Below are positions 16,251-56,058 of a stretch of 64,000 nt of DNA, piece after piece. Source of the stretch: a virus. The stretch is taken from positions 1 through 64,000 of IMG/VR virus record IMGVR_UViG_3300018890_000001. One strand, 5' to 3'. Every line of letters starts with the position of its first letter. The stretch's first letter is position 1. The translations under genes and the position numbers were made by a program. The notes under the pieces were generated by a model. That model was not told the origin of the DNA, did not search any database, and worked only from the letters and a program-made list of their open reading frames with translations.

Positions 16251-16293
16251 GTTGGATTCCAAATCCTAAAACCAACCTTAATTTTTTAAAAAT

Positions 16294-16800: not shown

Positions 16801-16858
16801 GCATGAGCGGGATGCTATTTCGATTTGTTAGCTTTACCCAAAGCGTAGAGGTGATGTT

Positions 16859-17125: not shown

Positions 17126-17219
17126 AAAAGGAAAGTCGCACAACATGGTTTTGTTTACCGCCCTTACTTATCCGATCAAAACAATGATCGTACGCGGGCG
17201 ATCGGTCAACCTCAGTTAA
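17094..17219 (+). other. Protein-like frame, possible frameshifted tail of the 16859 gene
   Basis: 41 codons in the +1 frame relative to 16859 read VATDIEWVDEKGKSHNMVLF and on to RGRSVNLS. There is no ribosome site and the only upstream start is TTG. Either a separate tiny gene or the original C-terminus of the 16859 product after an indel near 17090. Confidence 0.3.
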
Positions 17220-17225
17220 AATAAA

Positions 17226-29341: not shown

Positions 29342-29720
29342 TGTGTTTCCTCCATTCTTCGTATTGAACCTTGATTTTCTCGGAATACTTGGCAAACAAA
29401 CGTGAATCTCGCTGTGTCCATTCAAATTCATTTCCGGTAATAAGCCCCTTTAGTAAATAAGAAGGGTACTTGCCAAGTTCTGGAATCGTACAGTTTGTGC
29501 GCCCTTGATAAAGGTGGGGATGTGCAATACCGTTTTCGTCAACATAATCGCGATCGATGCGACGGATTACTTTTCCAATTATTTCACCAGAGGTGCTATG
29601 GCGCACAATATCTCCTGGTTGGTACAGATACTGAGGGTCTGGTTCTGGTAGGGGCATATCGGCTTGACATCCCCACATCTTGCATTCTCGTGTACCACAC
29701 GTTCGTTTGCAGTCTTTCAT
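29322..29720 (-). CDS. Hypothetical Cys-rich protein downstream of RNR
   Basis: 132 residues from MKDCKRTCGTRECKMWGC; five Cys in the first 18 residues suggest a metal or redox site. PGDIVRHSTSGEIIGKVIRR looks like a small barrel. It overlaps the RNR stop by 4 nt (ATGA-type), so it is coupled to RNR and may serve it. Confidence 0.55.
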   Translation of the reverse strand: MKDCKRTCGTRECKMWGCQADMPLPEPDPQYLYQPGDIVRHSTSGEIIGKVIRRIDRDYVDENGIAHPHLYQGRTNCTIPELGKYPSYLLKGLITGNEFEWTQRDSRLFAKYSEKIKVQYEEWRKHNETETE

Positions 29721-30883
29721 GTTTGTGGTTCCGACAATGGTATCAAGCACTTGTCGGAATCGCAAGCTGCTGGTCCTTCGACTTCCTCTGGCGAAGTGTA
29801 CCTAGAAAGTGCTTTGTAGAAATCGTCGCAGGTGCGTCGAGCTTCTACTTCTTGGCAGAGACAGTCATAAGTTTCTCGGGTGATCGGTTGAAAAGGCATT
29901 CGGGGGAACGTTTCATATTCATCGAAGCGGGCGAGGATCGCTGCTGATACGTAACCTTCGTCATTTTGGATTGCATCAAAAATAGCTTTCGCTAAATCGG
30001 CAACTTCATGTTCTCGCACCTCAATTGTCGCTGAAGTGTTGTGGGTGGTGTAGTTTTTCTGCACATTCAGGTAGTAGTCAAGTTGGGCGGTTGCTGAAAA
30101 TTGACTAATATCGATTTTTTCTACACCAGGTAAGTTGGCCCAGCTCACGGCAGTCGGAATTTCAATCAACCATTCAGTGCAGCGCTCATCAAACGGATCG
30201 TCGAGCAATTGTCCGTTTTCGTCTTTGTCGGATTGTGCCGGTACGACCGTATATCCGTACTCGATCGCAGCAAGGGCGATCGGATTGTTTTTGCCGATCG
30301 TAATCCTGCGAATAAACCACTGTGCTTTTGGCGGATGCCAACCTGGAGACGCACCTGTCAGCAAAGCTTTGCTGCCCGAGGGCTGGATCGTATTACATCG
30401 ATTCGGACACTTCAACCCATGTTGATCGCAATAATCTCGCACCGTAGTTTCGACTGTTTTTCGCCAGCGCACTAAGTAAGCCGTTTCGATATCTCGATAC
30501 AGCGTCCCAAAATTCCAACCAGATTCGTCAACGAGTTCATAATTGTCAACATAAATGTCGAGTAATTGGGAGATTTTTTGAACATTTTGCTCAACTATTG
30601 GTTGTGGATAAAAGTCTGGGCGACCATCAGCAAACCATTGCAACCATTTAGCTCCTAGTGCATTGACACAGAAATCAAACCAGCCAGTAAAGGAAACTCC
30701 GACAATCGGATCGAGATCGCGACTGTACTGATATAGTGGCTCTGCAAATTGGTGTTGAAGCAAAGTCGAAACGAGTAAGCCGCCAGCGTAAAAAGCAGTA
30801 TCCTGTTCTTCTAAATTGAATGGATCAAGTTGGTTAAGGTGTACCTCAGAGAGATTACATAAAAAATTTGAGCCGATAATTTC
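29717..30883 (-). CDS. nrdJ: Class II ribonucleotide reductase, exon 2
   Basis: The C-terminal 388 residues of an adenosylcobalamin-dependent ribonucleoside-triphosphate reductase of the Lactobacillus leichmannii monomeric type. It starts E-I-I-G-S-N-F-L-C, where Glu and Cys correspond to E410 and C419 of that enzyme, includes NTIQPSGSKALLTG, and ends with the CDSDKC redox pair (C731/C736 equivalents). The frame seems to start at a TTG formed by the last intron bases, but the true protein is made by joining to exon 1. Joined length is 788 residues, close to the 739 of the model enzyme. Supplies dNTPs for replication without oxygen dependence. Confidence 0.92.
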   Translation of the reverse strand, partial: EIIGSNFLCNLSEVHLNQLDPFNLEEQDTAFYAGGLLVSTLLQHQFAEPLYQYSRDLDPIVGVSFTGWFDFCVNALGAKWLQWFADGRPDFYPQPIVEQNVQKISQLLDIYVDNYELVDESGWNFGTLYRDIETAYLVRWRKTVETTVRDYCDQHGLKCPNRCNTIQPSGSKALLTGASPGWHPPKAQWFIRRITIGKNNPIALAAIEYGYTVVPAQSDKDENGQLLDDPFDERCTEWLIEIPTAVSWANLPGVEKIDISQFSATAQLDYYLNVQKNYTTHNTSATIEVREHEVADLAKAIFDAIQNDEGYVSAAILARFDEYETFPRMPFQPITRETYDCLCQEVEARRTCDDFYKALSRYTSPEEVEGPAACDSDKCLIPLSEPQT

Positions 30884-31132
30884 CAATTTGTTATCCCAAG
30901 GGCTTTTTATCCTTTGGTTCTACAGATTTAAGTTTTCTGTAGGTCGGCGTACTTTTTGTATGTATATTCTTGTTACATACCTCCGCACTCTTGCCAATTT
31001 TATATTCTCTTTCGAGGTTCAATTGGTACGCTCTACGGTGTCATGAGTTTTTTGGCTCTCGTGATTACCTCGGAATTGGCGTTTCAGCTTTCTCCGATTT
31101 TGCGAAGTTTTTAACGTGAGGCAAAATTATCT
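30884..31132 (-). ncRNA. Group I intron in the ribonucleotide reductase gene, 249 nt
   Basis: Exon 1 ends CGTGTGGU and the intron starts AGATAATTTTG. The exon end pairs with the internal guide GCCTCACG to form P1, with a U.G pair exactly at the 5' splice site (one internal mismatch). The intron ends in G, and the 3' exon GAAATTATC pairs with GATAATTTT in the intron to form P10. These are the defining group I features. Splicing restores N-P-C-G-E across the junction in frame. The intron holds no reading frame and is near the minimum size for this class. I could not lay out the P4-P8 core with certainty by eye. Confidence 0.82.
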
Positions 31133-32332
31133 ACCACACGGATTTAGACCTAATCGCGATAAGCGATGATCTAACTCTTTAACAGGCATTGACGGATAAC
31201 CATCTTGCATCCATTTTCGAGATTCACCGCGATCGTAGGCTTCTAAGAATGAGGTTCTAAGGAGTTCGTTTGTAAGTAAATCTACATTGCATCTCGCAAC
31301 CGCTTCGCCACCCCATTGGATCGCTCCTTCACCAGAGCGATATTGTTTAGCAACAGATTCTTTGCATTCTTCAAGTGTGGGTTTATGATGAAATACAAGC
31401 GAGTGATTAGCCATTCTTAAAGCATCACGCTTTGGATCAATACGCCAATTTCCTTCCGTATCTTGCCCCCAAAGATTGTCCTTAGCGGATGCTCCGATTT
31501 TGTCGTTATGATTGAACTGTCGAATTCCTGCTGTTCGCCTAACGTTTCCGGCAACAATTACAATTGCCGCTTCATCAATTAACAAACTGCACTCAACTGA
31601 ATTCAATCTGCGCCCGATTGCCCCATTTAATATTAAAGCGCACTTATCAAACAATTCGGGTAGTTTGATAGGGTTGGAAATGCCTCCGAACCCCTTAAGC
31701 TTTTCGCCAGCAGGACGTACAGAGCCTAGTCCAATATGGACTTTGATTGGTTCGTTAGCCAGATAACTACAATCGAACGCTAGATTGATCAACGCTTGAT
31801 ATGCGTCCACCCAACCTTTGCGGCTATCTCCAACCCAAATCACAGATGTTATTGAGTTGTTGATCTGTTTAGTTTCATTTTTTCGTTGGTGTGGTGCGTA
31901 CTCACCAATTTCAGAGAAGATTTCAATCTTCAGTTGATTGCGGACTATCGGCAGGCGATCGATACAATCTTCAGTTAGGACTGCGCCAGTGCCGCAACCT
32001 TGCATTCCTAAATCCATCAACAAACCAAAAACTTCCAAGGATGTCAGCTTTAAACTGGTGCAGTTGTAAGCTCCTGGGAAGTTTTCTGGTTGTTCTATCC
32101 ATTCTCGGCCGCCTACCCAAAGCCAGCGACCGGACGATAGACATTTGAAATTATACTGTTGCTCGTACAATAGGTCGTACTCCTCTTCACTTAACTTTCC
32201 TAGCTTTGAAATACCATCAATTGTCCGATCGCACACTTCTTTCCAGGTTTCTCGGACACCGTTGTTGTTGTGTGAGTAGGAACGAAAAAATACAAATGGG
32301 GCTGATGGTGCATTTTCTGGGAACATTGGCAT
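31133..32332 (-). CDS. nrdJ: Class II ribonucleotide reductase, exon 1
   Basis: The N-terminal 400 residues, exactly 1200 nt. The start at MPMFPENAPSAPF is chosen for AAGGA about 10 nt upstream. Recognisable: SSGRWLWVGG, YNCTSLKL (with the redox Cys equivalent to C119), GCGTGAV, SVRPAGEKLKGFGG, AGNVRRTAGI, and the terminal LGLNPCG with the thiyl-radical Cys (C408 equivalent). The gene is cut by the intron one codon after that cysteine, the most conserved place in the protein. The unspliced message would end in Arg-stop and be inactive, so expression depends on splicing. Confidence 0.92.
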
Positions 32333-32358: not shown

Positions 32359-32907
32359 CTAGAATGGTAGCTCTAGTTGTACGTGATTGGATTTGAACCG
32401 TCGTTTGCGAGGTGATCCGGGTTGAATGTTTTCCCAGCGTTTCCCACTTATAATTTTAGACACGTTAGAACCCGATATCTCGAATTTGTCGGCAATTTCT
32501 TTGTGTGTGTATTTACCACTTTGCCCAAGCTTTCTAATTTGCAAGATTTGCTTTTTGTTTAGCTTGGTATTACCAGATCCGATCTTTTTTTTGTGGGTTC
32601 CGTGTCTAATTTTATCAGCGGTGTTTTCAGCTTTTGTCCCCCATTTCAAATTGGTAAGACAATTGTTTAATCGATCGCCATCTCGATGACAACCTTCGTA
32701 ACTAGAGTCTGGTGGGTATCCGTAGAAAGCGAGTAACACCACGCGGTGTAGTGCTTTTAACTTTCCCCTTATTCTGACATAAAAATAACCGTCACTGAGT
32801 ATCCAGCACGGTTGTTTTTTTTCTAACAGAAAAACATTTCCAAATATATCGACTTCATATTCGGGGGCGTATGGTATTGGTTTTTGGAATAATGCTGGTT
32901 GCAGCAT
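32359..32907 (-). CDS. HNH homing endonuclease (NUMOD4-HNH type), free-standing
   Basis: A 182-residue protein. NUMOD4-like start (YEVDIFGNVFLLEKK), an HNH core LHRVVLLAFYG...CHRDGDRLNNCLTNLKWGT, then a helix-turn-helix DNA-binding tail (LGQSGKYTHKEIADKFEISGSNVSKIISGKRW). It lies 26 nt upstream of the RNR gene in the same direction. Free-standing nucleases next to an intron-bearing gene can drive spread of the ORF-less intron (collaborative homing), which fits here. Catalytic residues look intact. Confidence 0.88.
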   Translation of the reverse strand: MLQPALFQKPIPYAPEYEVDIFGNVFLLEKKQPCWILSDGYFYVRIRGKLKALHRVVLLAFYGYPPDSSYEGCHRDGDRLNNCLTNLKWGTKAENTADKIRHGTHKKKIGSGNTKLNKKQILQIRKLGQSGKYTHKEIADKFEISGSNVSKIISGKRWENIQPGSPRKRRFKSNHVQLELPF

Positions 32908-43449: not shown

Positions 43450-43545
43450 GGTTGTACAACAGATTATGTCTCCTTCGATCGCCCCCACTTTTGTTGCAAG
43501 CAAATTAATCGGGCGATCTTTTTTATGTTAACGCTAGGGGTAAAA

Positions 43546-43614
43546 GGTGTCAAGGGTGTCAAGGGTGACAAAGGTGACAAAGGTGTTGACAATCCCGTAA
43601 TACTCTATTAGATT
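43546..43614 (+). promoter_or_regulatory. Iteron-like repeats overlapping the promoter of the membrane-ATPase operon
   Basis: Four contiguous 9-bp direct repeats (GGTGTCAAG twice, GGTGACAAA twice) and a fifth divergent unit run into TTGACA (43586), which is followed by 17 nt and TAGATT (43609). The repeats lie where an activator or repressor would touch RNA polymerase. The unit length of 9 bp is not a helical turn, so cooperative filament-like binding or an origin-type role is also possible. Confidence 0.65.
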
Positions 43615-43646
43615 GAAAGGTATCTATATCTAATGAGGTTGAGTTT

Positions 43647-44114
43647 ATGCAACTCAAAGAAATGGTCGGTTCCATATTCGCTGATTTCAGCAAACGAGTT
43701 TCTCACACGTTAACCAGCGGAAAAGGTTTAGGTGTTTATTACCGTACTCCAGAAGAGGCACGTCTACTTCAAGAGCAAGCGCAACTGGCAAAAGCAGCAG
43801 TAGATCCAACGGTTGCTAGCTTAAACGCGCAAATTGACATCATAAAAGCAGAAACAACAATGACGGTCGCCGGCATTAAATATGTTGGTGCGGAAGTAGA
43901 ATCTCTAGCTGACAAGCTGGACGCGGTTGCTGACTTGTCAGATGTTGTAGCAAACGCTTCACCGAGAGCTCAAGCTGCTATTTCGCGAATGAACGAAAAC
44001 GCTTTGGCGTTTGGCGACGAATTTGAGCGGATGCTCAACCCAGATTCTGGTCAACAATCTGGTCGGGCGATCGAACCAGCGCCTCAGCAGAAATTCCTGT
44101 ACGCTTCGCGTTAA
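43647..44114 (+). CDS. Hypothetical helical protein, first gene of the ATPase operon
   Basis: A 155-residue protein, Ala-rich and helical (VASLNAQIDIIKAETTMTVA), with no membrane helix. No recognised family. Confidence 0.55.
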   Translation: MQLKEMVGSIFADFSKRVSHTLTSGKGLGVYYRTPEEARLLQEQAQLAKAAVDPTVASLNAQIDIIKAETTMTVAGIKYVGAEVESLADKLDAVADLSDVVANASPRAQAAISRMNENALAFGDEFERMLNPDSGQQSGRAIEPAPQQKFLYASR

Positions 44115-44163
44115 CGCTTTCAATCAAGTCAACTAATCAAAAGGTAGTTTAGGATCATCGATC

Positions 44164-44442
44164 ATGAAATTCATAGATTTCGTTCCAGTCACTGGCAGTG
44201 TAATCGTAGTAGGCGTTTTAGCTGCACTAGCTAAGTCAGCGATCCAACCGATCGCCCTTTACGCAATTTGTGGTTTAATTTGCATTGTTTTAGCAAAACT
44301 TTTGGGTCTCAAATATGTTGGGAGCCTTTCTGACGTTACCCGTTTACGTCCATCAGTCATTAACCTTCATTTGTGCGCGTCGCTTTTAGCTTCGGCGTTT
44401 GTTCTCGCTATCACACTCGGAGGCGAAAATGTACGACCCTAA
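44164..44442 (+). CDS. Small membrane protein
   Basis: 92 residues with three predicted transmembrane helices (about 10-28, 29-47, 68-86). The next gene starts inside its end. No known family. Confidence 0.55.
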   Translation: MKFIDFVPVTGSVIVVGVLAALAKSAIQPIALYAICGLICIVLAKLLGLKYVGSLSDVTRLRPSVINLHLCASLLASAFVLAITLGGENVRP

Positions 44443-44764
44443 AAAACACGTTGCTAAAGAGTGGCAGATTATCGGTTGCGGGGCTGTCACCGCAGTCGCT
44501 GTGACAGGTGCATTTTTTGCACCAATCAAGTCTGGCGAAATTCCGGTGGCTCGTTTGATGGCGTTTGCCATTGCAGGTTCAGCTCTGACCGCAGGAGCAT
44601 TGATCGAAAAATCGAAAGAACCGCTCGATCGCCAGAAAGAAGTGATAGATGCAAAAAATAGAAAAGTCTTTGCCAAGACACAGGGACTCGATGCTGCGTT
44701 TTTGATTGAGACTAAACAAGCTCAGAGTACAGAAGCGCTCGTCAAGGAGTGCGACAAAAACTAA
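44429..44764 (+). CDS. Small membrane protein
   Basis: 111 residues from MYDPKKHVAKEW, chosen for GGAGG 5 nt upstream. Two helices (about 14-34, 43-60), then a charged tail. Overlaps both neighbours (14 nt and 1 nt). Confidence 0.55.
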   Translation: MYDPKKHVAKEWQIIGCGAVTAVAVTGAFFAPIKSGEIPVARLMAFAIAGSALTAGALIEKSKEPLDRQKEVIDAKNRKVFAKTQGLDAAFLIETKQAQSTEALVKECDKN

Positions 44765-45693
44765 TGGCTAGCAAGCGAGAACCGACAGTCAAAGACGTTC
44801 AGAAGATTCTGGATTTGCTTAAGACAGAAGATCCGTACAAAGAAAATGGGGGTTTAATTTACTGGGACGGCACCGTAACGTCAGAGCACAATTACGCGAT
44901 CTGTCGAAGTGCGATTTTACTCGATCTTGACTCTTATGACTGGAAGAAAGTTAAAGCACTTTGGATTTGCGCGGAGTTGCCAAAACCACCGGGCTATATC
45001 GATGAGTGCTGTGGTGGTTGTGAAGATCGAGAACTTTCTCGATTAGAACTCTCGAAGTTCGATTACGCGGAATTTGTTTCTACAGTTCCGCGCAAGGATT
45101 GGGTAACTCCGGGTCAAAAAGCTTGGGCGGATAAATTTGGAATCCCGGTCATTGTTTATCAGCGACCTTACCCAAATCCAGCAAAAGGGGAAAAGTTCGG
45201 GACGTGGGATATTTACGATCCAATCAAAACTAATGATAAGGCGATCGGTGTAAATCTCGGTCAATTATCGAAGTTCGCTGGAATTTCCGCAGTGGAAGAT
45301 CGGGAACATTTGACCACGGTTGCCAGGCTGGCAATCGAGGAACGCGAATTGCACGAAGCAGCTATCCATGCAGCTTGGTTGAAAATGTGCAACGCTCATA
45401 ATGAGGGGCTTCAGGAATGCCAGTTGGCTTACGAGCAATTGCAAGCACAAACTGAAGTGTTCGATCGTCGCATAAAAACTGCGTTGCACCGTATCGATCG
45501 CCAAGAAATACAATCACTAGCGCTGTCTGCAACGAAAGCTGCGCCTGTAAATATTCGGGCGCGATCGAAATCTAATACGGCAACTCCAGTGATGTCGGTA
45601 TTACCACCAGCTAGTGCTGAGAAATTGGACAGTCCGCTTTACACAACGCCCCCCATTGAAACGTTTCAGTATATAGAGGTGCGAAGAATTTAA
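44764..45693 (+). CDS. Hypothetical protein of the ATPase operon
   Basis: 309 residues from MASKREPTVKDVQKIL (TAATG overlap). ECCGGCEDRE near residue 80 may bind metal; the C-terminal half is a long helix and a Ser/Thr/Pro-rich tail. No recognised family. Confidence 0.52.
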   Translation: MASKREPTVKDVQKILDLLKTEDPYKENGGLIYWDGTVTSEHNYAICRSAILLDLDSYDWKKVKALWICAELPKPPGYIDECCGGCEDRELSRLELSKFDYAEFVSTVPRKDWVTPGQKAWADKFGIPVIVYQRPYPNPAKGEKFGTWDIYDPIKTNDKAIGVNLGQLSKFAGISAVEDREHLTTVARLAIEERELHEAAIHAAWLKMCNAHNEGLQECQLAYEQLQAQTEVFDRRIKTALHRIDRQEIQSLALSATKAAPVNIRARSKSNTATPVMSVLPPASAEKLDSPLYTTPPIETFQYIEVRRI

Positions 45694-45742
45694 TATGGTC
45701 TGGTGCATCTACCTATCCAACAAAGCAAACTAAAGGGGTTGA

Positions 45743-46126
45743 ATGAATCGCAAACTAACTGAGAAAGCCAAACATCGTGGTTGCGGGATTGAAATGTATG
45801 AAATGTGGAATTGTCATGAATTTGACGGAATTGGTTACTCCTACGTCATTATCAATCACCAAGGGGTACCGCGTACTGATCAAACCGATGAATACTGGAT
45901 AGATAGTGTGTCATACGCACTGACAAAAGCAATCGCGTCAATAGACGAGGATCTTGATTCGTGGTGGGCGATTTCTTGTTTAGCGATGTACCGAAACAAG
46001 TTTGAGCATTTCGCTTTGGTTTATTTTGGCGAAGAGACGGGTGCGATCGCAAAAGGAATGGAAGAATTGCAAAAACGCTATCCCAAACACAAATATTCGG
46101 TGAAAATATTAGGCGCGGATATGTAG
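45743..46126 (+). CDS. Hypothetical protein
   Basis: A 127-residue protein, alpha/beta by appearance (SWWAISCLAMYRNKFEHFAL). No recognised family. In line with the ATPase operon. Confidence 0.5.
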   Translation: MNRKLTEKAKHRGCGIEMYEMWNCHEFDGIGYSYVIINHQGVPRTDQTDEYWIDSVSYALTKAIASIDEDLDSWWAISCLAMYRNKFEHFALVYFGEETGAIAKGMEELQKRYPKHKYSVKILGADM

Positions 46127-46346
46127 ATACAAGTCAACCATAAAAGTGAGAAAACGTAAATGCTAGTTACAACCAAGTATTGTATCAAGATTTTATGCAA
46201 CTTTTAATATGGGAGATCTTGCTATTAACTGCTAGTCCCTTCGTTACCACTGAAACGCAAACACCGACTTTTGTGAAGCAAGCTGCGATTTTACAGCGAT
46301 TGTCGATCACCACCCGATCTTAACGGCGCTCATTCAAGCGGATGCA

Positions 46347-46445
46347 ATGCTCAAAGTTTTTGGTTTACAGGGTGAGGACGCTGACGATTTGGTTAAGGGT
46401 GCATTGCGTTATGTAGCTATGTTGTGTTCTGAGGTACAGAAATGA
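46347..46445 (+). CDS. Small frame coupled to the next gene; probably partial
   Basis: 31-32 codons from MLKVFGLQGEDADDLV, ending in an ATGA overlap with the next start, as in real operons. The frame is open and protein-like upstream to about 46252 (VDHHPILTALIQADAM) without a start codon, so the gene may have lost its beginning. The rest of 46127-46346 shows only short, shifting frames, consistent with decay. Confidence 0.38.
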   Translation: MLKVFGLQGEDADDLVKGALRYVAMLCSEVQK

Positions 46446-46648
46446 AAATTACGGTTGAAGGTACACCCGAAGAATGTGATACTTTGCTGAATGTATTGCG
46501 TGGTGTGAAAAAACTTGACAACAAGCTGGAAGTAGAAGTGGTCGCGATCGAAACCGTCGTAGAACCAGCACCTAGAGTACCGCTTGTGCTAATAAACGGT
46601 GGTTTGGGCGATCGAAAGCAGCGGGTGATCGAACTACCTAAATTTTAG
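46442..46648 (+). CDS. Hypothetical small protein
   Basis: 68 residues; MKITVEGTPEECDTLLNVLR looks like a strand-helix start of a small ferredoxin-like domain. A terminator follows. Confidence 0.5.
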   Translation: MKITVEGTPEECDTLLNVLRGVKKLDNKLEVEVVAIETVVEPAPRVPLVLINGGLGDRKQRVIELPKF

Positions 46649-46664
46649 GGATACACTAATCAGC

Positions 46665-46703
46665 AAAAAAAAGACGCGATTTATAAAAATCGCGTCTTTT
46701 TTA
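46665..46703 (+). terminator. Rho-independent terminator inside the ATPase gene cluster
   Basis: AAAAGACGCGATTT / AAAATCGCGTCTTTT. It divides the cluster into an upstream and a downstream transcription unit. Confidence 0.88.
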
Positions 46704-46756
46704 TCGTGTTCGTTGAAACTGCGTGATATTTGTGCAAATATCGGAACAATCGTTGC

Positions 46757-46890
46757 TTGTGTACTAATTGGGTGTAATAGTATTACACATAGGTCACTAC
46801 ACAAGACTTTTGTGTAATGCAAATTTGTGTAGCAAGTAAATCAAAGTTCAATTGTTGTAAGCGTTTGGGGAGGGTTGTATTTGTGTAATG
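46757..46890. promoter_or_regulatory. Cluster of TTGTGTA half-sites, candidate operator array
   Basis: TTGTGTA(A) occurs at 46757, 46810, 46825 and 46881, in reverse at 46798, and a 17-bp palindrome GTGTAATAGTATTACAC lies at 46772-46788. The last copy overlaps the start codon at 46888. Seven half-sites in 134 bp suggest cooperative repression of the second transcription unit. Confidence 0.6.
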
Positions 46891-47361
46891 AATAATCTGG
46901 ATGACACGCCCGCGATCGTGTATCAGGTTGCTGTATTAAATGCCCGCGAATTTGCTGCTTGCAGATCGGCTCTAACAAATGGGTACTCGATCAAGCGAAG
47001 TGAGCTTTATATCCTTAATCGGAGAACTGGAAAGCTCGTAACGCGAAAAACGCTTTGGGAATGGGATTGCATATTGCAAGCACACCCCAAAATGATCAAC
47101 TATCGTCGGGATAGCACGCAGCAATCCCTGTGGAATCCTGGGCAAGCCTGGAACCCTCATCAGGTATGGTGTTTAGAAAAAGTTGCGGACTTTATGGCGA
47201 CCAAAGCCATCTACCGCAACACTGAAAGCAAAAAGAGAAAGTACAAAAGCAAAGGGGTGTTGCGGTTCCCAACTTACGAAGAACTCAACCAATACCTTGC
47301 CGACAATCACGAAAAATTCACCCACAAACAATTTCTGAAGGAGAGATTTCATGTCAGTTAA
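46888..47361 (+). CDS. Hypothetical protein
   Basis: A 157-residue basic, Trp-rich protein; LYILNRRTGKLVTRKTLWEW, and a Lys-rich C-terminal region. Could bind nucleic acid. The next gene starts 11 nt before its end. First gene after the operator array, so a regulator is possible. Confidence 0.52.
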   Translation: MNNLDDTPAIVYQVAVLNAREFAACRSALTNGYSIKRSELYILNRRTGKLVTRKTLWEWDCILQAHPKMINYRRDSTQQSLWNPGQAWNPHQVWCLEKVADFMATKAIYRNTESKKRKYKSKGVLRFPTYEELNQYLADNHEKFTHKQFLKERFHVS

Positions 47362-48231
47362 ATTTGATGATTTGGCTACCGAATTAAAGACCACCGTCGG
47401 TCAATTGACTACTCTGGCGGAAATCCTAAATGAGGAAACAGCCAATTCTGAAACACCATTAAATTTACCAATTGGAGCAAAGGTAAATTTGACTAACGAA
47501 GACGCTGTGCTGCTGCGAAATGAGTTCAAGAAAAGACAACAAAGTAATGTTCCGGCGAACCCCACTCCGCAGTTGAATCCCGGTCCGATGCGCAATACAA
47601 GCGATATTCAGCAAGCGGAAGCATCTGACGTTCCAACTGCTCAGCAAGAAGCCCCGACGGCATCTGAAATGGATACTGTGCATATAAATTTCGAGCAGGC
47701 AATTTCTGCTCAAGAAACACAGGATCAACAGCTTTTTGAGAACGATCTTTCCACAATCAAACACCATCAATTCCAGCTTGGTGTACTCAAGGCTATATAT
47801 GGTGCAACGGCTAATACTGAAGGGTTTATGGCAGGGCAGAATGCACTTGCAGCCGCTAGGAATGCACAGGCTGTTGAGGCGCTTAAGCGTAAAGCAAGGA
47901 TGCTGGCGGGAACCGAGGGCGCTGATTTTTTGCCCAAATATCCAAATGTAGCCCAGCTCTCGACGGAGATCCCGGAAGCGCCGAAGTCACTGAATCAACA
48001 GAATTCAAACAGTTTGGATCGCCTGAAGAAATCGTCGCCGCAATAGACAAGCTTCGCGAAGAGAATCGATCGGTAACGTTTATTCTCTTCGTTAGTTCAA
48101 ATCAAAATCTGTGGAGTCGAATATTGGTTATGAATTGGCTACGGAATCGGATCAACAATTTTTTAGCAGCACCATCCCCCAGTTATACCGAATTTAGCTC
48201 TATTTGCGCTAATTTGATGGGTTTACCTTAA
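47351..48231 (+). CDS. Hypothetical protein with candidate -1 frameshift extension (231 or about 293 residues)
   Basis: The zero frame ends at 48046 (231 residues): a helical Glu/Gln-rich protein. At 47926-47932 lies T_TTT_TTG, a textbook slippery heptamer in the correct phase. The -1 frame opens directly after a TGA adjoining this site and runs 99 codons to 48231, with protein-like content (FGSPEEIVAAIDKLREENRS, VTFILFVSSNQN, and a basic WLRNRINNFLAA). That frame has no good start codon of its own. The zero-frame tail is low-complexity. Either programmed frameshifting makes a longer form, or a recent indel split one gene. Confidence 0.58.
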
Positions 48232-48240
48232 GGAGGCAAA

Positions 48241-48540
48241 ATGACAGTATCAAACGCAAACATTCCTTTCGATCGCGAGCAAGTCCGGTCTACTAAGCCT
48301 GAAGTTCAACAAGCGGAATCTCGCGTCACTGACGAGTTTGAAAGAATTATTCCGATTGACGAACAGACTTTTAATCGCTTGCGATTAGGTGGAATTGATG
48401 AATCAGAGTATGGAACTATTGAAGACCGTTTGTTTGTATCGAGAACGGCATTTAATTCAAAAGGTGATTGCAGCCCTACTGACAATACCTGGAGGGTACT
48501 CAAGTCGATCGCCCGCAAAATTAGCAAAATAGGGGGTTGA
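48241..48540 (+). CDS. Hypothetical protein
   Basis: 99 residues with an AAGGAGG ribosome site. Acidic; no recognised family. Confidence 0.52.
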   Translation: MTVSNANIPFDREQVRSTKPEVQQAESRVTDEFERIIPIDEQTFNRLRLGGIDESEYGTIEDRLFVSRTAFNSKGDCSPTDNTWRVLKSIARKISKIGG

Positions 48541-48545
48541 ATTAA

Positions 48546-49355
48546 ATGAATCAAGGAAAAGGTGGGGCGCTAGTTCCGTTGGCAGACCGCATGATAGTTC
48601 CCACTGGTTCTGCGATGCTAGCGAACGACTACAACATCGATGGCTTGGACATCCCAAGCACTTTGACGCTTGACGATTTTGAAGCCTTGGGTCAGCGGGC
48701 GATCGAGATCCAATGGCTTTTAGATAATTTACCAACTATCAAAGATAAGTTGATGCTTGTCATCAGGGGGCAGGTTTCCTGGGAGCAAATGAAGTGTGAA
48801 TTGATGAAAGCTGGGTACAAGGGTGCCGGCGATATCAAAAAGAGCACTATCGACGCTCTTATTGCAGAACAAGCTTTCAATGCCAAGGTTGCCCAGCAGG
48901 ATTACAGATTAAGCGCAAACACGAAGAAATTCGGTCAAGAGACTACCGAAGTCAATGCCTTTACGGATTCGTTAATCGAGCTGGATTTGGCGTCACTCAG
49001 AGCGCGGAACGCTGCAATTCTCGAACAAAAAAGACAAGCTGCCAACAGTGAAGATGCCGCAGCTATCGCAGAATGGGAGACTGCTCGAAAAAACAACGAT
49101 CTACAAGCAGCTTCAATGTTGCTTCAGTACGGAACCGCAGCTCGATCGCACCCTAAATTTCCCGGTGGAGCGCAGGCGATCGGTGGTTCCTCCCGGCAAC
49201 AAGCGTCATTCGGTGGTTTTAGTGGAACCCGTCAACAACCCAAAGATCGTTTAAAAATCGAACTCGAAGGTAATGTCGCTGGCGCAGCAAACCGTTTTGC
49301 TAACCGCGCTGGCAATGGCGTCAAAAAGCTGAAAAATTTCTTTTTTGGAGGGTAG
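48546..49355 (+). CDS. Hypothetical protein with Gly/Arg-rich tail
   Basis: A 269-residue helical protein. The C-terminal 70 residues are Gly/Gln/Arg-rich (GGSSRQQASFGGFSGTRQQP), suggesting a flexible or nucleic-acid-binding tail, ending LKNFFFGG. 2 nt from the next gene. Confidence 0.52.
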   Translation: MNQGKGGALVPLADRMIVPTGSAMLANDYNIDGLDIPSTLTLDDFEALGQRAIEIQWLLDNLPTIKDKLMLVIRGQVSWEQMKCELMKAGYKGAGDIKKSTIDALIAEQAFNAKVAQQDYRLSANTKKFGQETTEVNAFTDSLIELDLASLRARNAAILEQKRQAANSEDAAAIAEWETARKNNDLQAASMLLQYGTAARSHPKFPGGAQAIGGSSRQQASFGGFSGTRQQPKDRLKIELEGNVAGAANRFANRAGNGVKKLKNFFFGG

Positions 49356-49357
49356 TC

Positions 49358-49753
49358 ATGTTTTCGTTAGCTAATCGACCAGAGCCACCCACAGTTGAAG
49401 TTGATGTGGAAGTCCCGAAATCCGCATATTATCTACGTTTGAAATCCCAAAGCAACGTAGCCTTTTTGGGGATCTGCTTTGGGGTGGGAGTGGTCGCTAC
49501 CAATGTTATCCGGCTGTTCCCGGAATACTACGTTTTTTACGCTCTCCTGTCTGTCTCAGGAATAATTGCATTGCTTGCGTTTCCTTCGGCAGACCTTGGA
49601 GCTAAATATTTGTGGAGATGGGGTGCAATCGCGCTTCTGGGTGGTTTAGCGCTGCCTTGGTGGGAAATCCTACATCTCATCCCTAAATGGGTGTGGATAG
49701 GCTTATTTTTGGCGATTGTTGGGATTGTAGTGGCGATCGGAGGTAATCACTAA
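49358..49753 (+). CDS. Polytopic membrane protein of the ATPase operon
   Basis: 131 residues with four predicted transmembrane helices (about 34-52, 58-76, 83-101, 110-127). TAATG overlap with the ATPase gene: the two are certainly co-translated, so this is a likely membrane partner. Confidence 0.6.
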   Translation: MFSLANRPEPPTVEVDVEVPKSAYYLRLKSQSNVAFLGICFGVGVVATNVIRLFPEYYVFYALLSVSGIIALLAFPSADLGAKYLWRWGAIALLGGLALPWWEILHLIPKWVWIGLFLAIVGIVVAIGGNH

Positions 49754-51537
49754 TGAAGCACATCGCTGCAAAGCTTGTTTTAAGTGGTTTAGCGATTTTA
49801 ATGGCGGTCGCGCCAGTTCCATTTGAAAAGTGGGCTTGGCAGCGAGTTGGGCTTGGCATTCTGGGATTGGCGGGAATAACTTCTACTAAGTCCAAAATTG
49901 ACCAGGAGATGGAGGAACAGCATTTAGTTGATGTTCAAGTTTTTGAAGAAAAACTGTACGAAAGACAACTTACTGAATTACAGCGCGGGCTAGCCCTGGA
50001 AGCTGCGCGACAACAAGAAGCTATTCGGTTTGACTTACAAACTAAAATGGCGACCGCTGACTACCAAGGCGCGTTTGTCACCATCATGGAAGAAAAGCAC
50101 CCTTACTACCTTGATGCTTTACAAGCACAACAACAAGCTGCTTTAGAGGCTCAAAAACGAGCGTATTCTGCTGAAGGTGGATTGGTTGACCGTGTTGGTG
50201 AAATGATTGAAGTTGGGGTGATCGGAGCTGAGACAGGTATTAACCTAGAAACTGGTGTACAGCAAAATTCAATCCCTAAATATTTAAGGAGTTTCGTTTC
50301 AACTACTTGTTTGGCTTGGGGCGCGCAAGGTAGCGGTAAATCGTGGTTTGTTCGCTATTTAGCAAAAATTAAGGTTGATAAAGGATATCGCGTTATCGTC
50401 TTCGATCCAAACAGCAATCAAGCTGCTTGGAGAGGTGTAGAACTCATCAATACTTACGAAGCTATTGAAGAGAAGATGCGTTGGTATATCGAAGAAGTAA
50501 TGTCGCGCTACCAAGTGTTTACAGCTTCTGATTATGACGAAGACGTTTGGCGGGCGCAACTTTGGACTGACGGTAAAGCAATTAGTGTTATTTGCGAAGA
50601 GGTTACAACCTATGCCGATTTTATCCCAGACACCGAATTAGTTAAACAGTTTATCAAGGTGGCGACTACATTAAGTCGAAAGCAAGAGATGCCAGTTACG
50701 TTTGTTACCCACAACAATACGCAAACTTGTTTCGGCAATATCAAAGGTCTTGGTCAGTTAATCGCGGATATGCAACAAATTAAGTTGATTCCCAAAACAG
50801 ACCCACAAACAGATCAGCCAGTTGCATCTGGTCGGGCGCAGGTGCGATCGAACAGCGAACAAAATTGGGTGGATGTTACAGTACCGAGAATTACCTCAAA
50901 AATTACAGATTTTACCCGAATAACACAGGTTATTTCTACCCAAGAACAGTCAGATATTGTTGATACTGAGACATCGAATCCTGTGGATAATTCCGTAGAG
51001 CTAGATCAAAACGAGATTAATTTGATTACCAGTATCGAAACTCAAAAAGAGCAACTCGACGCGACTTTCAATAAAACCTACAATCCGCTAGATCACTTCA
51101 TGCAAGAAGCTAGTCAAGAGCAGTTGGAAGAGATGATCAAAAGTTGGCGAGCGTTGGCTGATACGTCGCGATCAGACGTATCAGATACTTTGATACAAAA
51201 AAACGCATCTGATACGCATCAATCGCCAGAACCTGCACAGGATAACGGTTCGCGACGTATTTGGGATGTATCAGATTTCCGTAAAAACCTACCAGATCGC
51301 CAAGAGGAGGTGATGTTTCGAGAGTTGGATACATTTTTTCAAAACGTATCTCGTAGTCCCAACAGAATTATTAAAGAAGCGTGGGGACTCTCAAATGGGA
51401 ATGTTTACAGTTCAATTGGAAAACCATGTTTTGTCTATTTAGTGACAAAATATGGCACTGACGAGCACAAGACTTCCCCGAAGTTCGCAAAACACATTGG
51501 AGAATACTTGGGTTCTGATGACGCTAATGACGAGTAA
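49753..51537 (+). CDS. Membrane-anchored P-loop ATPase, FtsK/HerA/VirD4-like
   Basis: 594 residues. Two short N-terminal membrane helices (about 5-22, 30-45), a coiled-coil region (50-150), then the motor: CLAWGAQGSGKSWF (Walker A near residue 195), YRVIVFDPNSN, ISVICEEVTTYADF (Walker B), VTFVTHNN (sensor). The C-terminal 100 residues look like a winged helix (FRELDTFFQNVSRSPNRIIK), as in FtsK gamma, after a linker repeating S-D-T/V. It probably moves DNA or protein at the membrane. VirD4-like coupling, packaging and segregation are all possible. It is the core of the operon. Confidence 0.68.
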   Translation: MKHIAAKLVLSGLAILMAVAPVPFEKWAWQRVGLGILGLAGITSTKSKIDQEMEEQHLVDVQVFEEKLYERQLTELQRGLALEAARQQEAIRFDLQTKMATADYQGAFVTIMEEKHPYYLDALQAQQQAALEAQKRAYSAEGGLVDRVGEMIEVGVIGAETGINLETGVQQNSIPKYLRSFVSTTCLAWGAQGSGKSWFVRYLAKIKVDKGYRVIVFDPNSNQAAWRGVELINTYEAIEEKMRWYIEEVMSRYQVFTASDYDEDVWRAQLWTDGKAISVICEEVTTYADFIPDTELVKQFIKVATTLSRKQEMPVTFVTHNNTQTCFGNIKGLGQLIADMQQIKLIPKTDPQTDQPVASGRAQVRSNSEQNWVDVTVPRITSKITDFTRITQVISTQEQSDIVDTETSNPVDNSVELDQNEINLITSIETQKEQLDATFNKTYNPLDHFMQEASQEQLEEMIKSWRALADTSRSDVSDTLIQKNASDTHQSPEPAQDNGSRRIWDVSDFRKNLPDRQEEVMFRELDTFFQNVSRSPNRIIKEAWGLSNGNVYSSIGKPCFVYLVTKYGTDEHKTSPKFAKHIGEYLGSDDANDE

Positions 51538-51576
51538 TCTATGTTTAATTAATCAAACTACCAAACCAGGGGTTAA

Positions 51577-51882
51577 ATGCAACTTATCCAATTTCTTTTT
51601 TTGATTGGGGTTTCGTGTCTACTTTTCATGTTTCTTTTTTCAGGGGTGATCGGTTACTTCTTTTACTCTTTGTCACACGGTGCTCCGCCGCTGGAAGTAA
51701 CGACACCAACACTTCTTCATTGGGAAAACCTACCGAAAGTTTCCAAGAAAACGTTACTTCCAGCGATTACTATGCTTACCGCTCTCTGGGTGTTAATCGG
51801 TTCAGGGGAATCTAAGAAAGAAGACGACAAAAGTGGAAAAAGCAAAGGACGTACTCGGAGACGCCACCAAGATGAAGATTAA
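51577..51882 (+). CDS. Small membrane protein
   Basis: 101 residues: helix at about 5-25, a second at about 60-76, then a Lys/Arg/Asp-rich tail. No family recognised. Confidence 0.55.
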   Translation: MQLIQFLFLIGVSCLLFMFLFSGVIGYFFYSLSHGAPPLEVTTPTLLHWENLPKVSKKTLLPAITMLTALWVLIGSGESKKEDDKSGKSKGRTRRRHQDED

Positions 51883-51907
51883 AAATTCACACTCTTGAGG
51901 AAAACCC

Positions 51908-52603
51908 ATGTATTTAGAAAAGACGGATTGTGACAACTTTGTTGAAGACCTTTGGATCAATAATATGGATGAAGGGATTCAGGTTGTAGGTGCTAAAGAT
52001 TCGTTCAAGTTAAACGCTATTTGCCAGCTACTTGAAAAATTAAGTCCAGACCCTACTGAGATTTTTGTGTTGAGTCCAGATATCGAGCAGAAACAATTTT
52101 GGGATTTGGCAGGTATCCCGATCGCCCAAGATTTGAATCAAATTGCGTCCTCGCTCCGTCAATTACTTCAGGAATTGCATAAAAGGCAAAGCATTTTCCG
52201 CATTTTTATCGGACATCACATCAACTGCGTAATCGAGATCGATGATTTGCATGATGCACTTGTTGAGCGAGGGCTCAGTTTGGGTATTGAGTACGACGCG
52301 CGAGAATTGAATGAAGCTGTGGCAGAACTTCGAGATCTTGGTCCAAGAGTTGGCATTACTGTTATTGCATGTACAAAATCTGAACCGTATTGGAACCACT
52401 GCCTTTATTCGGGAGAATCAGCGATCCGATTCGCGAAAACCGCGAGTCAAGATGTTCTTGAGGAAGTTAGTAACCAAGCATACCCGTGTTGCTTTACGAT
52501 CGCCAACGATGTCTATTTAATGTCGGTGACAGACCATCTTACGTCGTCTATACCTCGGGTGATCGCTTTGATTTCTGAAAACAAACGGGCGATCGCGCTG
52601 TAG
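51908..52603 (+). CDS. ATPase-like protein without P-loop, partner of the membrane ATPase
   Basis: A 231-residue protein. IQVVGAKDSFKLNAICQLLE aligns with a Walker A region but lacks GKS/T. NCVIEIDDLHDALVERG sits in the Walker B position and GITVIACTKSEPYWNHCL matches the sensor strand VTFVTHNN of the ATPase at 49753. Strand order is that of a RecA/HerA core. Likely an inactive paralogue of the motor, acting as a structural or regulatory subunit. Confidence 0.5.
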   Translation: MYLEKTDCDNFVEDLWINNMDEGIQVVGAKDSFKLNAICQLLEKLSPDPTEIFVLSPDIEQKQFWDLAGIPIAQDLNQIASSLRQLLQELHKRQSIFRIFIGHHINCVIEIDDLHDALVERGLSLGIEYDARELNEAVAELRDLGPRVGITVIACTKSEPYWNHCLYSGESAIRFAKTASQDVLEEVSNQAYPCCFTIANDVYLMSVTDHLTSSIPRVIALISENKRAIAL

Positions 52604-52648
52604 ATTCATTTTTCAAATACTAATCAAACACAACCATAGGAGGTTCTC

Positions 52649-52909
52649 ATGATTTCTCAAAATTACATCGGCGTCGAGTCAATCAATATTCATTCTTCAG
52701 CGAACGTGACAATTCATAAGGGAGATGCGTTTCAAGTAAAGATTACACCACTATCTGAGGGCAGATACAATATAGCGAATTATGGTATAATATGTATAGA
52801 AAAGAAAATGACACTACACAGATTCAACAAAGCGAATAAATCGAGACAACTCGAAGCAGCCATTGAAGTAGAAGATCGTCACTTTTGTAAAACCAAAATA
52901 AATATTTAA
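52649..52909 (+). CDS. Hypothetical small protein
   Basis: 86 residues with AGGAGG ribosome site. Beta-rich, no family recognised. Last gene of the operon. Confidence 0.5.
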   Translation: MISQNYIGVESINIHSSANVTIHKGDAFQVKITPLSEGRYNIANYGIICIEKKMTLHRFNKANKSRQLEAAIEVEDRHFCKTKINI

Positions 52910-53169: not shown

Positions 53170-53484
53170 ATGCGCGTACATCTTAACAATCATGACAATC
53201 AATGTTCGGTAAAAGAGTATAATAGCCTGCAAAGAGAATATGGTTGTTGTTTTGAAAAACTAAAGGTAACGGATAGGTGTATGATTTTGGCTGTTTTAGC
53301 TGTTTCATTGCACAATTTGCTTATGAATGATCCGTTTAGAAGTATGACTACGTATAATTTGTATGAAACTGCTATGTCAATAATGGCAAGAGATTGCTGT
53401 ACAAGGTTGATGGGCTTGACTTTTGAACATATGACGTGTGCCTGTAGCGCACTTCTGTCTCAATTGAACTTACCACGAGAATAA
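53170..53484 (+). CDS. Hypothetical Cys-rich protein
   Basis: 104 residues with nine Cys, including CCF, CCTR and CAC, mostly in predicted helices. No recognised family. Confidence 0.5.
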   Translation: MRVHLNNHDNQCSVKEYNSLQREYGCCFEKLKVTDRCMILAVLAVSLHNLLMNDPFRSMTTYNLYETAMSIMARDCCTRLMGLTFEHMTCACSALLSQLNLPRE

Positions 53485-53487
53485 AAT

Positions 53488-53537
53488 AAAAAAAGCGGGC
53501 GATCGAATATATTGATTCGATCGCCCGCTTCTTTTTT
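53488..53537. terminator. Terminator with GATCG core
   Basis: AAGCGGGCGATCGAAT / ATTCGATCGCCCGCTT. Confidence 0.9.
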
Positions 53538-53546
53538 ATTTCAAAG

Positions 53547-53630: not shown

Positions 53631-54662
53631 TCATTTTTGCACGTTGTCAACTTTTATTTTTGCTTTATCTAAAATTGCTTTTACCTTTTTATACTTCTCT
53701 GCACCGACTTTGCTCCGACCTTCGTAATACGCTTCTATATTGTCGCGAAAAAAAGAAGCCACCTTTCCGACCACCTCCTGCGCGACAGCTTCGACTTTTT
53801 TCTCGGAGTTACCGATCGCCTTCGTTGCTGCTTCAAATCCAGCAACCGTCGCAGTACCGATATCGTTCATCATTTCTTGAGTGTTGCGACCAACTCGTTT
53901 AAGTTGTTCACGCGCTTCTGCTTGAGCTTCTTTGCGATCAAGTTCATTCTCGACTTTTTTTCTGGAACCTTCGTAAAATTCTTCGTCGGTAACATTTCTC
54001 TGGGTCGCAGTATCGATTGCTTTATTGATCACACCGTCAACCGCATCTTTGAAAGTTTGAACGACAACTTCTTTGAGGGTTCTACTTTTGATTGGGGCAC
54101 TTAAATCATTCAGTGTACGGTCGAGAGCTTCAGTTGTTCGGTCTTTTGCGTCGAGCAACATCTCCTTGTGTTCGTAATCGCTTACGTCAAGAATCAATTC
54201 GGTGATGAGTTTATTGGCTTCACTTTTGGGTAAAACTTTTTGTAATTCGTAATCAAGATCCGATATAGCGCGATCGCGCTCGTCAACATCAACACCTTTG
54301 AGATCTTTGCCAGATAGTGCTACAGCGGGCGCTAATTTTTTTAAAACCGCATCTCGGTAAGCCGTCTCGCCACCGGACACTTTTGCCCAGACTTTTGCGA
54401 CTGGATCTGACGTGCCTGCAAGTCTTTTAGCAATTGTGGCGATCGCCTCCTGGCGTTCAGGAGTATCGGCTTTCCATATTTTTTGTTCTTTATCGAGAAA
54501 AACATTTAATTTTTCACCGTCTGACATAGCTGACGCTGATTTTGCCCATTTACCGTCAGCGGATCGAACGCGGTTTTGCTCGCGATCGTAATCTGAGAGT
54601 TGGGCACCTGCTACGATTAGCTGTGTTTCTAAAATTTTTAATTGAAAATCAGTATATGTCAT
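53631..54662 (-). CDS. Coiled-coil protein, probable virion protein
   Basis: 343 residues from MTYTDFQLKILETQL. Almost all helix. YDREQNRVRSADGKWAKS near residue 30 resembles the R-x-x-x-G-K-W-A motif common at the start of phage virion and scaffold proteins. Several long amphipathic helices follow (EFYEGSRKKVENELDRKEAQ). It could be internal tail or scaffold protein. The TnpB element is inserted just upstream of its start. Confidence 0.52.
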   Translation of the reverse strand: MTYTDFQLKILETQLIVAGAQLSDYDREQNRVRSADGKWAKSASAMSDGEKLNVFLDKEQKIWKADTPERQEAIATIAKRLAGTSDPVAKVWAKVSGGETAYRDAVLKKLAPAVALSGKDLKGVDVDERDRAISDLDYELQKVLPKSEANKLITELILDVSDYEHKEMLLDAKDRTTEALDRTLNDLSAPIKSRTLKEVVVQTFKDAVDGVINKAIDTATQRNVTDEEFYEGSRKKVENELDRKEAQAEAREQLKRVGRNTQEMMNDIGTATVAGFEAATKAIGNSEKKVEAVAQEVVGKVASFFRDNIEAYYEGRSKVGAEKYKKVKAILDKAKIKVDNVQK

Positions 54663-54861
54663 CGGATTACCTGCGATAATACAGCAATTCAAAACGAGCT
54701 GCGGTTTTGGGTTTTTAGTTGATGTGAGCGTGAAGCCCTACGAGCCACCGAAGATGCGCGTCGGGACAAAAGCGCAGCCAAAAAATAAATTGAGCTGTAG
54801 CAAATAAATAATCGTTTTTGTGCGTTATGATGATTTTATCAGTATTCCGCACACCTGATAA

Positions 54862-56058
54862 ATGTATAAAGCTTACAAGTACAGAATTTACCCCACAAGT
54901 GATCAAGAGGTTTTGCTCGCAAAATCTTTTGGGTGCGCACGATGGTTCTGGAACTACGCTTTAAACCTGTGTCAAGAAACCTACAAGCATACTGGTAAGG
55001 GATTGTCTAGGGGCTACATACAAGGCTTACTTCCTACACTCAAAAAAGAGTACGAATGGCTAAAAGAGCCATATGCTCAATGTTTGCAGGCGGTTGCGCT
55101 CAATCTATCTACAGCCTACAAAAACTTTTTTGAGAAGCGGGCGATGCCCCCAAAGTTTAAAAACAAGTACAGTAGACAGTCGATCAGCTATCCGCAAAAC
55201 ATAAAGTTCGATGGGGACTATATCAACTTACCTAAGATTGGTCTAGTTTTCTGTCGAAGACACCGTGATTTCGTAGGTGACATTAAAACTGTTACCGTTT
55301 CTCGAAACCCAGACGGTAAACACTTTGTTTCTGTTTTGATTGACGACGGGAAAGAACACCCTGAGCTAGTCGCAGTAGATAAGACTATTGGCATTGACGT
55401 GGGGTTGACTCATTTTGCAGTCACCAGTGATGGTTCTAAATTTGACAATCCCAAGCATTTCGTCAAGCGTCAACGGAACTTAAAGCGCAAACAACAGAAG
55501 CTTTCTCGCAAAAAGAAAGGCAGTCAAAACCGGAAAAAGGCAAAACGGGCTGTAGCCAAAGTCCACTCCAAAATTGCCAGATGTCGCGAAGATTTTCTAC
55601 ATAAGCTATCCCGCAAGATAGTCAACGAAAACCAAGTTATTGCAGTAGAAAATCTCAATATCAAGGGCATGGTCAAAAATCATAATCTAGCCAAAGCTAT
55701 TAGTGACGTTGGTTGGGGGATGTTTTGCACGATGCTTAAGTACAAGTCGAAGAACGAAGGAAGAAGACAATACGTCGAAATCGATAGATGGTTCCCTAGC
55801 TCTAAGACTTGCCATGTATGCCTAAATCAAATCAAGCAGCTTACGCTTGACGTTAGAGCATGGACTTGCAAACATTGTGAAACACACCATGACCGTGATA
55901 TCAACGCAGCAATCAATATTAGAAATGAAGCCTTGCGGATTTTGGCATTAGGAATTAGTGCTTCTGCCTGTGGAGGGGATGTAAGTCGATCCGGTAAAAC
56001 TTCGGTTTTGTTGGACGCTATCCCCATTGAATCAGGAAGCCAGACGATGACCGATTAA
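54862..56058 (+). CDS. tnpB: TnpB RNA-guided nuclease
   Basis: 398 residues, full length. N-terminal MYKAYKYRIYPTSDQEVLL, OrfB zinc-ribbon protein layout. RuvC-like residues: D in GIDVGLTHFAV, E in AVENLNIKGM, D in HDRDINAAINI. Zinc finger from CHVC and CKHC. The C-terminus (GGDVSRSGKT...) is encoded over the right end, which serves as the guide RNA scaffold. It cuts DNA at sites matching its guide next to TTGAT-type motifs, which keeps the element in place. All key residues are present. Confidence 0.93.
   Translation: MYKAYKYRIYPTSDQEVLLAKSFGCARWFWNYALNLCQETYKHTGKGLSRGYIQGLLPTLKKEYEWLKEPYAQCLQAVALNLSTAYKNFFEKRAMPPKFKNKYSRQSISYPQNIKFDGDYINLPKIGLVFCRRHRDFVGDIKTVTVSRNPDGKHFVSVLIDDGKEHPELVAVDKTIGIDVGLTHFAVTSDGSKFDNPKHFVKRQRNLKRKQQKLSRKKKGSQNRKKAKRAVAKVHSKIARCREDFLHKLSRKIVNENQVIAVENLNIKGMVKNHNLAKAISDVGWGMFCTMLKYKSKNEGRRQYVEIDRWFPSSKTCHVCLNQIKQLTLDVRAWTCKHCETHHDRDINAAINIRNEALRILALGISASACGGDVSRSGKTSVLLDAIPIESGSQTMTD

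Follow-up and report, generated by a model that had tools for sequence, protein, structure and literature searches.

The locus described here lies in the first 64 kb (hereafter the window, whose numbering is used unless record coordinates are stated) of a 199,763-bp virus record in IMG/VR, IMGVR_UViG_3300018890_000001. The record encodes a GpA-type large terminase (TerL; record 192404-194452, Pfam E 1.4e-12, phrog_675 E 2.4e-20), a major head protein, a tape-measure protein, a DNA polymerase, a ribonucleotide reductase and a thymidylate synthase, and on account of these genes we regard it as a large tailed phage. Between 43647 and 52909 stand 15 open reading frames (ORFs), all on the + strand and overlapping by 1-14 bases at 44429, 44764, 47351 and 49753, as expected from a sequence-only reading that had described about 15 same-strand genes, many of them overlapping, as a membrane-ATPase operon. 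That reading took them for one operon; a hairpin with a T run and a 239-bp gap now indicate that there are probably two, 43647-46648 and 46888-52909. Because no relative of a first-unit gene occurred in any related locus gathered, only the second unit is treated here as a machine, and it is the real finding. The second unit and the sites in front of it comprise the following features:

46667-46702: terminator-like hairpin, a perfect 16-bp inverted repeat with a T run at its end, dividing the region in two
46757-46887: TTGTGTA array of five copies (four on the + strand, one on the - strand), a probable operator array directly before the second unit
46888-47361, + strand: R, helix-turn-helix-like and DNA-binding-like, homologous to the gene that comes first in some plasmid operons and in an integrated element of Sphaerospermopsis
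47351-48046, + strand: 231-aa protein occupying the place of plasmid gene B, homology to B unsupported
48241-48540, + strand: 99-aa protein, no relatives found
48546-49355, + strand: C, coil-rich soluble protein, phrog_31528 (E 4.5e-23)
49358-49753, + strand: M, small membrane protein with four hydrophobic segments, phrog_36329 (E 3.7e-12)
49753-51537, + strand: A, membrane-anchored motor of the FtsK/TcpA/HerA superfamily, with P-loop GAQGSGKS, the acidic pair E282-E283, R309, K310 and H320
51577-51882, + strand: 101-aa membrane protein, no relatives found
51908-52603, + strand: A', by profile rank and alignment a degenerate copy of the motor domain, Walker A lost
52649-52909, + strand: 86-aa last gene, no relatives found

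By sequence comparison, the core R-C-M-A is homologous gene by gene, and in the same order, to a conserved mobile-element operon that we define here and that is carried on plasmids of filamentous cyanobacteria. E-values from hhalign are those of single comparisons, and matches were judged by their rank among the phage's own proteins. With the R profile, the product of 46888 came out on top among 190 sequences (E 7.9e-5; it scored 32.2 and the next sequence 23.6). Against a Trichocoleus locus (L021), C scored E 1e-8, with the next phage protein at 0.15, and M scored E 4.4e-4, with the next at 0.2; A is 57% identical to its counterpart there over 265 residues, and a further comparison of C gave E 3e-5. 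The 231-aa protein at 47351 was rejected as gene B, as it ranked only 101st of 190 against the B profile. The genes for A, C and M, adjacent in the window, match one phrog each (phrog_29669, phrog_31528 and phrog_36329), none with an assigned function. Thus the earlier description of several products as ORFans does not hold for R, C, M and A, which have relatives on many plasmids and several other mobile elements.

The operon occurs on many plasmids. A tblastn search with window A returned 41 plasmid records at E<=1, a count that takes in weak Paracoccus, Verrucosispora and Micromonospora matches; 36 were from Nostoc, Tolypothrix, Calothrix, Microchaete, Scytonema and Kovacikia. With a plasmid A as query, 49 plasmid records were found, all cyanobacterial and from genera filamentous by name, 33 of them typed mobilizable and 15 non-mobilizable; Nostoc sp. 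UHCC 0870 alone carries the operon on at least six different plasmids. On the plasmids an actin-like ParM/StbA gene (or R-B) comes first, followed by a number of small genes and then by C, M and A; in several plasmids the operon lies near a replication gene. Some of these motors are annotated 'type IV secretory system conjugative DNA transfer family protein'. Across 98 loci with A on the + strand, a membrane protein directly precedes A, often with a 4-base overlap, in 87 of the 93 that have an upstream gene (by our own ORF calls and a hydropathy threshold); L040, L052, L056, L098, L101 and L110 are the exceptions, and in five loci A is at a contig edge. When 84,980 genomes were scanned with a profile, 90 relatives emerged, and each of the 80 that were kept is titled as a filamentous cyanobacterium, a morphology that we take these hosts to have from their names. 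Plasmids of the CyRepA1 type, used as a control (n=232), were found in unicellular hosts too (Synechococcus 25, Acaryochloris 10, Synechocystis 7, Geminocystis 7). Within the phylum, A had matches in 33 of 386 genomes, weak ones down to E 1e-3 included, a count that is no test of a link to filaments. No published report of the operon was found in open-licence PubMed Central papers.

The central product, A, is recognised by Pfam as DUF87 (PF01935; 31.2 bits against a cut-off of 23.2, E 3.1e-7) and has an N-terminal membrane segment, which bears out its earlier description as a membrane-anchored FtsK/HerA-like ATPase. Residues G190, G193, G195, K196, S197, E283, R309, K310 and H320 are invariant in 30 of 30 A sequences. 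Its AlphaFold2 (AF2) model is confident only over about 171-390, with a predicted local distance difference test score (pLDDT) above 90 for most of 180-390. Compared with solved structures, the modelled fold appears closest to TcpA and FtsK, about equally: TcpA of pCW3 (PDB 6o1x) gave Z 17.6 (root-mean-square deviation 3.0, 208 aligned residues, 15% identity; Foldseek E 2.4e-7), and FtsK with double-stranded DNA (dsDNA) gave Z 16.8 over 218 residues, which is within 1 of TcpA and therefore a tie. ESX/EssC ATPases (about 13-15), HerA (12.9) and RecA/Rad51-like proteins (12-13.5) scored lower. A sequence search of the PDB found nothing for A alone, and its profile (A4) gave only P-loop-level matches.

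Each of these known systems resembles A in part. TcpA, from a clostridial conjugative plasmid, is likewise a membrane-anchored ATPase of a mobile element, whereas A has the partners C and M and the copy A', and no Tcp channel or relaxase gene was recognised near it. HerA/DUF87 ATPases share with A the domain that scores above the cut-off, and differ in their lower fold score and in the N-terminal membrane segment and C-M partners of A; they include TdtA of Thermus thermophilus, which a passage of PMC5365140 describes as a membrane-associated HerA/FtsK-type ATPase needed for DNA donation. TraB of Streptomyces plasmids, also described there, and the Tra proteins of actinomycete integrative and conjugative elements (AICEs) share the FtsK-class fold, small membrane partners and multicellular filamentous hosts; an actin-like or R cassette in front sets the cyanobacterial operons apart.

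The sequence-only reading had also proposed an inactive ATPase partner, an ATPase-like protein lacking a P-loop, and profile and alignment evidence indicates that this partner is real: A' is, on that evidence, a degenerate copy of the motor. Among 136 phage proteins of 120-450 aa it ranked first against the motor-domain profile (score 28.8 versus 21.7 for the next, E 0.0013), and the Walker A sequence GAQGSGKSW of A is replaced by GAKDSFKLN. Its AF2 model is of low confidence (mean pLDDT 62, no Foldseek match at E<=0.001), was built with A motors as the alignment and is hence biased to their fold, and was not counted as proof. There was no signal for A' as a motor of the type IV secretion system (T4SS) type. 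A single-sequence search of viral_contigs found no relatives of A', which therefore seems particular to this phage.

Sequence identity in the N-terminal part of A follows that of C (rho 0.85) and M (rho 0.66), while identity in the motor domain tracks neither (rho 0.18 with C, 0.32 with M); these values are from the 68 of 98 loci that passed size and spacing filters, and the pairs are not independent. A mosaic protein shows the same division: residues 1-272 of A from Nostoc edaphicum pNe_4 are 93% identical to A of Nostoc C057, whose motor differs, and from the motor to the C terminus the protein shares 87% identity with A from a Tolypothrix plasmid. From the rho values and this mosaic we infer that C, M and the N terminus of A form one scaffold onto which motors are swapped. 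Such swapping would fit a membrane complex whose motor must not mix with those of co-resident elements.

The operon is not confined to plasmids. In Sphaerospermopsis kisseleviana NIES-73 (L111/L112, G001:C1:2572288-2588338), a 16.0-kb element with perfect 44-bp end repeats lies in tRNA-Gly(gcc) and carries a PF00589 integrase, a 1372-aa helicase-like gene, R, B, M and A. Its replication gene is typed weakly (ResIII below cut-off), its pump is not PF01580, and no relaxase or capsid family was recognised among the ten proteins scanned. An integrase, a replication gene and an FtsK-type pump between attachment sites at the 3' end of a tRNA gene make up the plan of AICEs, which, according to a passage of PMC3218068, transfer by an FtsK-type Tra protein; by this analogy the element is possibly their cyanobacterial counterpart, and the resemblance in plan speaks for a pumping function. 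In a second genome (G314; L119/L120, C2:3232496-3253701), C, M, A, a DUF3854/D5_N replication gene and a recombinase stand between two parts of nifD (PF00148 E 2.5e-53; NifD E 5.8e-56) in an element of about 20 kb, whose ancestor may thus have been a mobile element resembling a plasmid or an AICE. For nifD elements, a passage of PMC4874684 reports an ATPase of unknown function that is confined to the element. Uncharacterised genes of 277 and 344 aa recur beside the operon in this genome (L119:11720-18460) and in the Trichocoleus locus (15252-17313), and a similar 272-aa gene (by eye) lies in G346:C1:1201747-1205979, a region flanked by 145-bp direct repeats. Two candidates for chromosomal examples were set aside: G346, a weak match in which no C-M was seen, and G019, which adjoins a terminase-like gene (by eye) and is likely a prophage.

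Other phages carry the operon as well. The plasmid A query found nine INPHARED records of cultured Nodularia siphophages, and in one of them, vB_NspS-kac65v151, C (E 4e-23) and M (E 3e-34) are accompanied by a 712-aa A that matches plasmids in its N-terminal part (E 1e-36) and has a different motor domain. In the Ravarandavirus phages of Nodularia, C, M and A are annotated as hypothetical (L125:5179-11127, as read; L126:1982-8127, by the same layout). In INPHARED, tblastn with window A gave only a chance Staphylococcus phage match (E 0.4), and a search with A of L107 did not recover the Nodularia phages. Single-sequence searches of viral_contigs with 49753 found no relatives; a profile search of the same collection found ten, including virus contigs L102-L110. 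L107 is a relative of the window phage and matches phrog_29669 closely (E 2e-159).

We tentatively favour, with somewhat less than even confidence, the reading that 46888-52603 is a phage-borne mobile-element operon for a membrane-anchored FtsK/TcpA-like pump, which would drive the dsDNA of the element itself through the membrane and most probably into an adjacent cell. That such elements move their own DNA in this way is suggested by the combination of an FtsK/TcpA-type motor and a co-varying scaffold on otherwise dissimilar mobile elements, phages with packaging genes of their own among them, and passage through septa is fitted by the near-restriction to filamentous hosts, while CyRepA1 plasmids occur in unicellular ones too. 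C, M and the N-terminal part of A would form a membrane scaffold, on which A, presumably as a hexamer, would translocate DNA; R would bind the operators or the element's DNA, and A', having lost ATP binding, may be a regulatory or structural partner of the ring. The dsDNA would then cross into the neighbour cell, in most hosts through the filament septum, and, as with Streptomyces TraB, without a relaxase.

Several observations weigh against this pump. PF01580 (FtsK_SpoIIIE) was not listed for window A in Pfam at E<=1, its Pfam match being DUF87/HerA, and in a plasmid relative (L002) PF01580 reached 19.3 bits, under the 24-bit cut-off. The C-terminal region of A is helical with pLDDT mostly below 60, which leaves a winged-helix domain like the one with which TraB reads short repeats of its element conjectural. 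An actin-like (ParM/StbA) gene lies within 7 kb upstream of A in 50 of 98 loci, which favours segregation. The filament association may reflect shared ancestry only; no host is assigned to L108 and L109, and L101, with relaxase-like and ParA-like genes (by eye) and a G+C content of 56%, looks non-cyanobacterial. A small virus present as four metagenome contigs (L102-L105) has a 307-aa A, called without a membrane segment and lying a few genes ahead of a terminase-like ORF, and the tRNA-Gly element has no recognisable C in the 796-bp stretch before A. A virulent phage, moreover, has no obvious need for cell-to-cell transfer. We consider a bolder form of the pump hypothesis unlikely: besides making virions, the tailed phage would pump its replicated genome via septa into neighbour cells, spreading infection along the filament without lysis and adsorption, and small cyanobacterial plasmids, like the ancestors of nifD-type elements, would owe their so far missing means of transfer to this machine.

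The main rival is segregation, which we hold possible and rather doubtful. Here a ParM-type or R-type partition cassette would act with an FtsK-like pump, which would free the septum of the element's DNA as it closes and so safeguard inheritance in polyploid filaments; a phage might thereby maintain a plasmid-like prophage or distribute genomes between daughter cells. The actin-like genes upstream of A argue for it, as do the match of such a gene in L108 to the 'partition protein' phrog_691 (E 2e-11), the nearby replication genes of several plasmids, and the near tie of TcpA in the fold comparison with FtsK, itself a septal pump. However, the window virus gave no match to ALP_N (PF17989), the actin-like family found upstream of A in its relatives, to ParA-type AAA_31 or to a tyrosine integrase, other families for these functions not having been searched, and the operon is also found on integrated elements, which are inherited with the chromosome.

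The exchange of motors across 68 loci, and the fact that the carriers are competing kinds of element, would suit a different role in exclusion or defence, in which the membrane complex blocks the entry of, or destroys, competing phage or plasmid DNA. HerA-type ATPases occur in known defence systems. Nevertheless, neither a nuclease family (NurA included) nor another effector was seen among the ten operon proteins scanned in Pfam at E<=1, five small ones being unscanned and no PADLOC search made, and we judge this role improbable. Less probable again is that A resembles a type IV coupling protein, delivering the element to a type IV secretion channel whose genes lie elsewhere and so helping mobilisable plasmids. 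TcpA as best fold match, the type IV secretory annotation of some motors and the 33 of 49 plasmids typed mobilizable speak for this; against it, the virus has no match to the relaxase family PF03432 (other relaxase families and T4SS genes were not searched), 15 of the 49 plasmids are non-mobilizable, and C and M usually accompany A, suggesting a membrane complex of its own. Packaging of the phage genome by A is barely credible despite a match over the P-loop region to phrog_2666 'terminase large subunit' (E 1e-5), since the record has its own GpA-type terminase (which rules out A as the sole packaging ATPase), head and tape-measure genes, and the operon is found on plasmids without capsid annotation.

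Of the four functions that the sequence-only reading had left side by side, transfer and segregation are the likeliest class. Its statement that no relaxase or terminase is recognisable in the operon agrees with the Pfam and phrog scans, in which one relaxase family was tested, and no T4SS channel was recognised either. In a partial check for membership of an established conjugation or packaging system, the motor proved about equally similar to the conjugation coupling protein TcpA and to FtsK.

The upstream unit and its control sites are as follows:

43543-43591, + strand: 9-bp iteron array, four exact AARGGTGWC units and a partial unit, running into a promoter-like site
43586 (TTGACA) to 43614 (end of TAGATT), + strand: promoter-like site by sequence, with a 17-bp spacer
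43647-46648, + strand: six genes (43647, 44164, 44429, 44764, 45743 and 46442), no relatives found

A single-sequence search of viral_contigs with 44764 likewise found none. Hydropathy places membrane segments in 44164, 44429, 49358 and 51577, besides the N terminus of 49753, which reduces the five or six small membrane proteins previously counted to four. Iterons at the first promoter and a TTGTGTA array at an internal one had both been described correctly; six single iteron units are scattered across the 200-kb record outside the array. For TTGTGTA, with five copies in 131 bp, none of 300 Markov-simulated 64-kb windows had more than two copies within that length, the cluster having been picked after it was seen. 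The hairpin at 46667-46702 is absent from the list of a separate terminator scan.

Some further features of the phage were noted. The octamer GCGATCGC, which we take to be a cyanobacterial signature, has 16 copies in the window against 0.54 expected. A strong bidirectional terminator-like inverted repeat (53483-53540; 26 nt, 88%) containing GGGCGATCG stands after the last + strand ORF, 53170-53484. Adjoining the operon, at 54862-56058, is a transposase gene (phrog_506, E 2e-131; TnpB-like by eye), and a second ORF (record 169975-171165) is similar to the same stretch of L109 as this gene. No phage was found by tblastn of gene 56934. A motif like RSGDFETTYKxExGKEVxVKRSPDGKFANK / RSADGKWAK (by eye) lies near the N termini of several phage proteins; those at record 183921-187326 and window 53631-54692 form a small paralogous family, role unassigned. 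The ribonucleotide reductase (29717-32332) is split into two ORFs matching successive halves of phrog_367 (27-389 and 390-696), and an HNH-like ORF (by eye) lies at 32359-32907; an intron, an intein or a frameshift is possible.

In conclusion, the operon is widespread, unannotated and present in culturable phages and plasmids. In filamentous cyanobacteria, this conserved set of 'hypothetical proteins' is common to small plasmids, cultured phages and prophage-like loci, and is shared by one element integrated in a tRNA gene and another that interrupts nifD. Should the set prove to be a DNA pump, it would account for the movement or inheritance of plasmids that have no recognisable conjugation system, would offer a lead on the origin of nifD elements, and would allow a direct test of whether DNA spreads along the filament of a multicellular bacterium.

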